From Meiothermus sp. (lineage in GTDB: Bacteria > Deinococcota > Deinococci > Deinococcales > Thermaceae), in assembly GCF_026004075.1 (NCBI RefSeq), contig NZ_BPIK01000001.1:1156041-1220040 (forward strand): a stretch of DNA of 64,000 bases, given 5' to 3'. Both the position numbers and the translations under genes were made by a program. The notes under the pieces were generated by a model that saw only the letters and a list, made by a program, of their open reading frames with translations, made no database searches and was not told where the DNA came from. Each line of letters starts with the position of its first letter. Position 1 is the stretch's first letter. This document shows positions 44,052-44,385 of the stretch, piece after piece.

Positions 44052-44160
44052 CTCCTACCGTCTGGTGGACAGGGGCCAGAGCCGTCTGTCCTAAAGGGTT
44101 TGTCCGCGTGGGATTTGGGGCGCTTTTGGTAGGAGTTTTGCTATAGCAAAACCCCCTACC
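44052..44160 (-). promoter_or_regulatory. Expression platform of the SAM-I riboswitch
   Basis: On the mRNA strand, GGTAGGGGG (44160-44152) and CTCCTACC (44135-44128) close a hairpin with TATA loop. CTCCTACC is also perfectly complementary (8 bp) to the metY ribosome site GGTAGGAG (44059-44052). Exclusive pairing would expose or hide the ribosome site. Confidence 0.65.
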
Positions 44161-44205
44161 AGACGTTCTTTTATGACTGGAAGGGGGTACGGCTTGTGCG
44201 TTCCC

Positions 44206-44385
44206 TTCTCTTATCTTTCCCAGCTGCCAGGCTATGCCTAGCCTCGAACATTGTGTGCCTACAAAGTTCGGCAGTTGGGCCGGAATTAGCACCGTGCAAA
44301 AAGCTTTCTGGTGATGATCAGAAACTTTTTGTGGGTTGCTGCGACTTCACAGGGCCGAATCCCTCCATCGCTCTGGATAAAAGAA
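44206..44385 (-). promoter_or_regulatory. SAM-I (S-box) riboswitch aptamer of metYX
   Basis: On the minus strand, P1 is TTCTTTTATC (44385-44376) with GATAAGAGAA (44215-44206). In between are the S-box cores GGAGGGATTCGGCCC (44366-44352), GCAACCC (44339-44333), GGTGCTAATTCC (44293-44282), a long P4 arm (44279-44219), and GGGAAAGATAAG closing P1. These match the known SAM-I consensus in order. SAM binding stabilises P1 and should reduce metYX expression. Confidence 0.92.

Follow-up and report, generated by a model that had tools for sequence, protein, structure and literature searches.

A SAM-I riboswitch leader of metYX in Meiothermus with a predicted chain of alternative helices from the aptamer to the ribosome-binding site

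Results and discussion

The leader of metY and metX in the window (the whole 64,000-nucleotide stretch of Meiothermus sp. DNA that was analysed) is probably a SAM-I OFF riboswitch, in which a chain of helices would relay SAM binding to the ribosome-binding site (SD) of metY. The leader is a real and elaborate version of a known SAM-I switch type, and dual control, by termination and by hiding of the SD, is more likely than translational control alone. The evidence for the whole account is computational; SAM binding and the fold change of the aptamer are predicted, and we infer the SAM dependence and the direction of switching.

Locus and switch segments

A covariance-model search confirmed the SAM-I aptamer of the original prediction (RF00162, 70.3 bits against a gathering score of 44.4). 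The aptamer sits 5′ of metY, which starts with ATG at 44045, and metX, methionine genes identified by NCBIfam, in agreement with the proposal that metYX are the controlled genes. Boxes resembling the putative metYX promoter were also found in the leaders of relatives. The features of the locus, all on the minus strand, are as follows.

44425..44453 (-), promoter of the metYX leader, sigma-70-type, TTGACA-17-TACACT (consensus scan, 10/12 matches)
44400..44415 (-), H5, 5′ hairpin CCGCGCTGGGGCGCGG, possible partner of 44123-44104, present in 49/49 Thermaceae leaders
44377..44386 (-), P1 5′ strand GTTCTTTTAT, predicted partner P1 3′ strand (SAM state) or E (SAM-free state)
44208..44383 (-), SAM-I aptamer (RF00162, 70.3 bits, E 2e-14)
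44203..44208 (-), A, GAAGGG, 3′ extension of P1 and anti-B (sequence and alignment)
44177..44187 (-), B, CCCCCTTCCAG, partner A or C; core originally given as CCCCCTTCC, 44187-44179
44165..44174 (-), E, ATAAAAGAAC, inside the B-C loop, fully complementary to the P1 5′ strand
44152..44162 (-), C, CTGGTAGGGGG, partner B or D; core originally given as GGTAGGGGG, 44160-44152
44148..44151 (-), TTTT immediately 3′ of the B:C stem, candidate terminator U tract
44128..44135 (-), D, CTCCTACC, anti-Shine-Dalgarno, partner C or the ribosome site
44104..44123 (-), P0b, GCGCCCC..CGCGG, complementary to the 5′ hairpin, between D and SD
44052..44059 (-), SD, metY ribosome-binding site GGTAGGAG
42753..44045 (-), metY, O-acetylhomoserine aminocarboxypropyltransferase (NCBIfam TIGR01326, 646 bits)
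41581..42720 (-), metX, homoserine O-acetyltransferase (NCBIfam NF001209, above cut-off)

The letters and coordinates first reported for A, B, C, D and SD all read back exactly. A does overlap the 3′ strand of P1 as had been described, by only one base of the Rfam P1, or by three if P1 gains two pairs. The B:C helix, described with 8 of 9 pairs, is real and extends further to 10/11 pairs (CCAG/CTGG). That model contained neither the P1-5′:E helix nor the possible helix between the 5′ hairpin and P0b. The P1 5′ strand (44386-44377) is perfectly complementary over 10 nt to the B-C loop (44174-44165), a match found in 2/5000 shuffled leaders. P1 has two downstream competitors, P1-5′:E and A:B. 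A perfect complement of the SD occurred in 36/5000 dinucleotide-shuffled leaders; on dinucleotide shuffles the C:D hairpin has a z of about -4 to -5 and B:C of -3.7. The C:D palindrome occurs once in the genome and is thus not a dispersed repeat.

In the proposed mechanism, the P1 5′ strand would pair with E, A with B, and C with D when SAM is absent; D being occupied in C:D, the SD would be free. SAM binding would form P1, taking up its 5′ strand and part of A; the freed B would then pair with C, and the freed D with the SD, hiding the ribosome site. B:C followed by the T-rich tract would probably also end some transcripts just after C, and repression would thus be dual; many Thermus-type genomes would terminate strongly, and in the window termination would be weak or optional. 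The 5′ hairpin would probably pair, in the SAM-free state, with the strand between D and SD, in competition with D:SD.

Some further features of the sequence were observed. The window and four close relatives (L042, L068, L072 and L073) carry an insertion of about 45-70 bases between CGCGG and the ribosome site (44103-44060, minus strand, in the window), which is absent from most other leaders. The P3 region contains two hairpins (44261-44254 and 44240-44233, minus strand) with a common 8-nt loop, UAGGCAYA. This loop is found again, on differing stems, in SAM-I leaders of Meiothermus and the sister genera, including the A-B loop of L081/L085, and GCTAGGCAYAGC has only three occurrences in the genome, all within SAM-I leaders. 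A search of 21 genomes with a model of the hairpin gave top hits that were nearly all SAM-I leaders, plus one antisense within a gene; the instances were selected for having a stem, so their covariation comes partly from selection. Elsewhere in the window, a glycine riboswitch (RF00504, 38316-38403, plus strand, 61.6 bits) lies just 5′ of a large ORF at 38486, by sequence impression a putative glycine dehydrogenase.

Conservation and covariation of the helices

The search for RF00162 covered 50 Thermaceae genomes and, at the level of the class, 111 genomes. Leaders were taken 5′ of metY (L077 is apparently 5′ of metX instead), giving a set of 49: 18 from genomes of the window's genus, window included, four from two sister genera and 27 of Thermus type, the Thermus label of this group (g4) being inferred from sequence. 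Named records among the relatives include Meiothermus taiwanensis, M. hypogaeus, M. rufus, M. luteus, M. granaticius and Calidithermus roseus. In each of the 49 leaders the 5′ hairpin, P1 and the segments A, B, C and D are present, together with a T-rich stretch and an SD that complements D; the B-C loop contains an E-like motif, AGAGAAC or AAAGAAC, in every case. The chain A:B / B:C / C:D / D:SD is kept in the orthologous leaders of the 48 other Thermaceae genomes even where the letters differ. Two other families of the order supplied three leaders that carry the same chain in different letters; one of them, L108 (family f2), keeps A, B, C, D and SD.

The individual pairs were followed in an alignment with 16 distinct rows, drawn from the window's genus and from two sister genera. 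The helices of the OFF state were 95.0% paired (P1 100%, B:C 87%, D:SD 100%), with double changes in three pairs against 0.7 in shuffles, a number reached in 0/500 shuffles; two of the doubly changed pairs were in B:C, and D:SD had every cell paired together with a compensatory flip. The helices of the ON state were 95.8% paired (P1-5′:E 94%, A:B 100%, C:D 94.5%), with six doubly changed cells, again reached in 0/500 shuffles. Controls with slid partners paired at only 51-63%, those of the OFF helices at 54-62%. In P1-5′:E, a change from U-A to C-G was compensatory in five rows. In the Calidithermus leaders L081/L085 a joint flip of C, D and SD at one position, from A-U to U-A, leaves C:D as well as D:SD intact there, and B:C is preserved by a one-place shift of its mismatch. 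A:B never varies in these rows and gives no covariation signal either way. The independent double changes are few in number.

Partners were also swapped between 11 lineages (10 for E), including the three leaders from other families. Pairing was better with own than with swapped partners for B:C and D:SD (0/20000 each), P1-5′:E (p 0.0007, 10 lineages) and C:D (p 0.002); the values were p 0.03 for the 5′ helix and p 0.48 for A:B. Since the segments were picked by pattern, or by eye in the three outside leaders, the test is biased towards own-lineage pairing. Of the four mutually exclusive segments first proposed, the pairings B:C, C:D and D:SD are thus upheld by covariation and by the swap test, and A:B is invariant and presumed. 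We regard the aptamer and the predicted helices P1, P1-5′:E, B:C, C:D and D:SD as demonstrated at the level of sequence comparison.

Folding energies

Folds and energies were computed ligand-free. At 55 C and without the 5′ hairpin, the ensembles of the window leader were 2 kcal/mol apart (ON -85.4, OFF -83.4 kcal/mol), and the duplex energies of P1 and P1-5′:E were equal. The Thermus leaders tested at 65 C favoured OFF by about 5 to 7 kcal/mol, and the g5 leader favoured ON by about 2 kcal/mol. Folding of the growing chain gave A:B and P1-5′:E once B and E were transcribed with P1 disallowed, B:C once C was transcribed with P1 held, and C:D once D was transcribed with P1 disallowed. With P1 held, C:D and B:C were near-equal in energy and alternated with transcript length. 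Folding with P1 constrained bore out A:B without P1 and B:C with P1. Against the proposed chain, the SD core was only about half open in the full-length ON fold of the window; the full-length OFF fold with the 5′ helix allowed did not draw D:SD, and the two helices together form a pseudoknot, which is beyond the folding program.

The 5′ hairpin

Whole-leader folding paired 44415-44400 with 44123-44104 unprompted. In most relatives tested the ON state was predicted to contain this 5′ helix and the OFF state largely to lack it, and the helix made the SD more accessible in most; in the window and L071 it was predicted in both states, and in L063 partly so. We consider the helix between the 5′ hairpin and P0b likely, though not established. 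A somewhat less probable explanation, which retains considerable weight, is that the hairpin stabilises the mRNA and matches GCGCCCC..CGCGG by GC-rich coincidence. The hairpin itself is stable (-10.3 kcal/mol), the shuffle p of the 5′ helix ranges from 0.000 to 0.58 per leader, being modest or non-significant in several, and its swap p is only the 0.03 given above. Against coincidence, most leaders retain GCGCCCC close to the SD despite diverged flanks, G058 of another family has matching changes in both halves (CCGCGCGGGC/GCCCGCGCGG), and G059 and G060 lack both halves. The 5′ hairpin was ruled out as a repeat, being single copy in its own genome.

Termination or translation

The original prediction was of translational control with no T run. 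TTTT at 44151-44148, however, directly follows C, and a T-rich tract stands 3′ of B:C in all 49 Thermaceae leaders, with 5-8 T in the ten bases after C. On composition, the chance of at least six T of ten is about 0.002-0.006 per leader, uncorrected for relatedness. A simple terminator scan omitted B:C because its loop exceeds the limit of 8; B:C plus tail was scored separately with a d'Aubenton-Carafa-type score. The score at the best offset was above 0 in 18/27 Thermus-type leaders (maximum +31), falling to about -13 in those with longer loops or broken tracts; it was +5 to +17 in group g2, and for Meiothermus and group g3 most values lay at -3 to -15. The window has a borderline -8.6. Most Thermus-type genomes are accordingly likely to terminate just after C, and the window may do so.

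That the switch is purely translational and its T run functionless, as first proposed, now appears unlikely. It would fit the score of the window, with just four T in a row, and the paralogous SAM-I leaders of the same genome (metY2-like), which have short A/B/SD platforms without a terminator. It does not account for the T-richness after C, which in Thermus persists through many variants at 68% GC in what would be the unpaired C:D loop. The opposite extreme is a pure transcription attenuator: B:C and the T tract would be the sole output, C:D would be a mere consequence of C, and D would match the SD only because it resembles an anti-SD. This is improbable. In its favour, the tract is conserved in 49/49 leaders and Thermus-type scores reach +31. 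Against it, the swap test ranks D:SD as the most specific pairing, both sides of D:SD change in concert in L081/L085, L108 retains a 9-bp D:SD without a T run, and the window scores below zero. The conserved tract and the B:C scores together favour dual control. D itself fits a translation-attenuating platform, with the SD sequestered by a conserved, covarying anti-SD, and translation is favoured as the surer half of dual control in the window.

Comparison with known SAM-I switches

The S-box (SAM-I, RF00162) of Bacillus subtilis controls methionine genes with OFF logic through intrinsic terminators. The metYX leader shares with it the aptamer, the OFF logic, the methionine genes and the competition between the P1 3′ side and B, and its B:C is the counterpart of the S-box terminator. 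Unlike the S-box, it would relay the signal through C:D and D:SD to the ribosome site, and its P1 5′ strand has an alternative partner of its own, E.

The SAM-I riboswitch of Xanthomonas campestris acts mainly on translation by hiding the SD of a met operon, and its platform also binds uncharged initiator tRNA (PMC7270179). The metYX leader resembles it in its predicted hiding of the SD, but the helix chain differs. Sensing of tRNA was considered and set aside: UGGU is present in C of the window, but the Thermus counterparts lack it.

Barrick and Breaker (2007) described a class with dual transcription and translation attenuation, as well as direct occlusion of the SD in P1, with Deinococcus/Thermus among the riboswitch users (PMC2258182). 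The dual class was assigned by a decision tree without a model of the helices that hide the ribosome-binding site (PMC2258182). The metYX leader is like this class in that a single ligand-driven rearrangement is predicted to affect both termination and SD access; it differs in that it would use distinct hairpins, in sequence, for the two jobs. A long platform is also found in Bc1, another dual switch (PMC11218506). A search of the open-licence literature found no paper on a Meiothermus SAM riboswitch and none describing a metYX-type platform in Thermus.

Shorter platforms and outlook

A second metY-like gene (metY2-like) in the same genomes has a shorter platform, with A:B against B:SD, and several relatives have a third SAM-I set whose SD lies inside P1. 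These short platforms share the aptamer class and the OFF sign with the metY leader, but the stretch from P1 to SD is made of fewer segments, C and D being additional in the metY leader. Addition of segments in pairs, from short to long, would preserve repression by SAM. Two side observations concern these loci. In the metY2-like leader L048, segment B is seemingly lost and the SD lies right on the 3′ side of P1 (GATGGAAGGAGGG); this leader seems to have changed over to direct occlusion. The second SAM-I/metY-like locus appears identical on both contigs of the genome (L044 and L045; G000:C1:2471860 and C2:17912), which is either a real duplication or an assembly repeat.

We tentatively suggest that the metYX leader is built, over its whole length down to the SD, almost entirely of segments with two conserved partners each, and that two complete, internally nested folds result: the 5′ hairpin:P0b helix, P1-5′:E, A:B and C:D in one, and the 5′ hairpin alone, P1, the B:C terminator and D:SD in the other. 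The SAM-I platforms of the order may then have evolved by gaining or losing segments in twos, with the OFF sign kept.

The leader offers a readable multi-step RNA switch in thermophiles that can be tested by comparison, and a test case for one SAM decision governing termination and translation jointly. Short and long platforms of one aptamer class within one genome would allow a direct test of how the added segments affect sensitivity, speed and leakiness.
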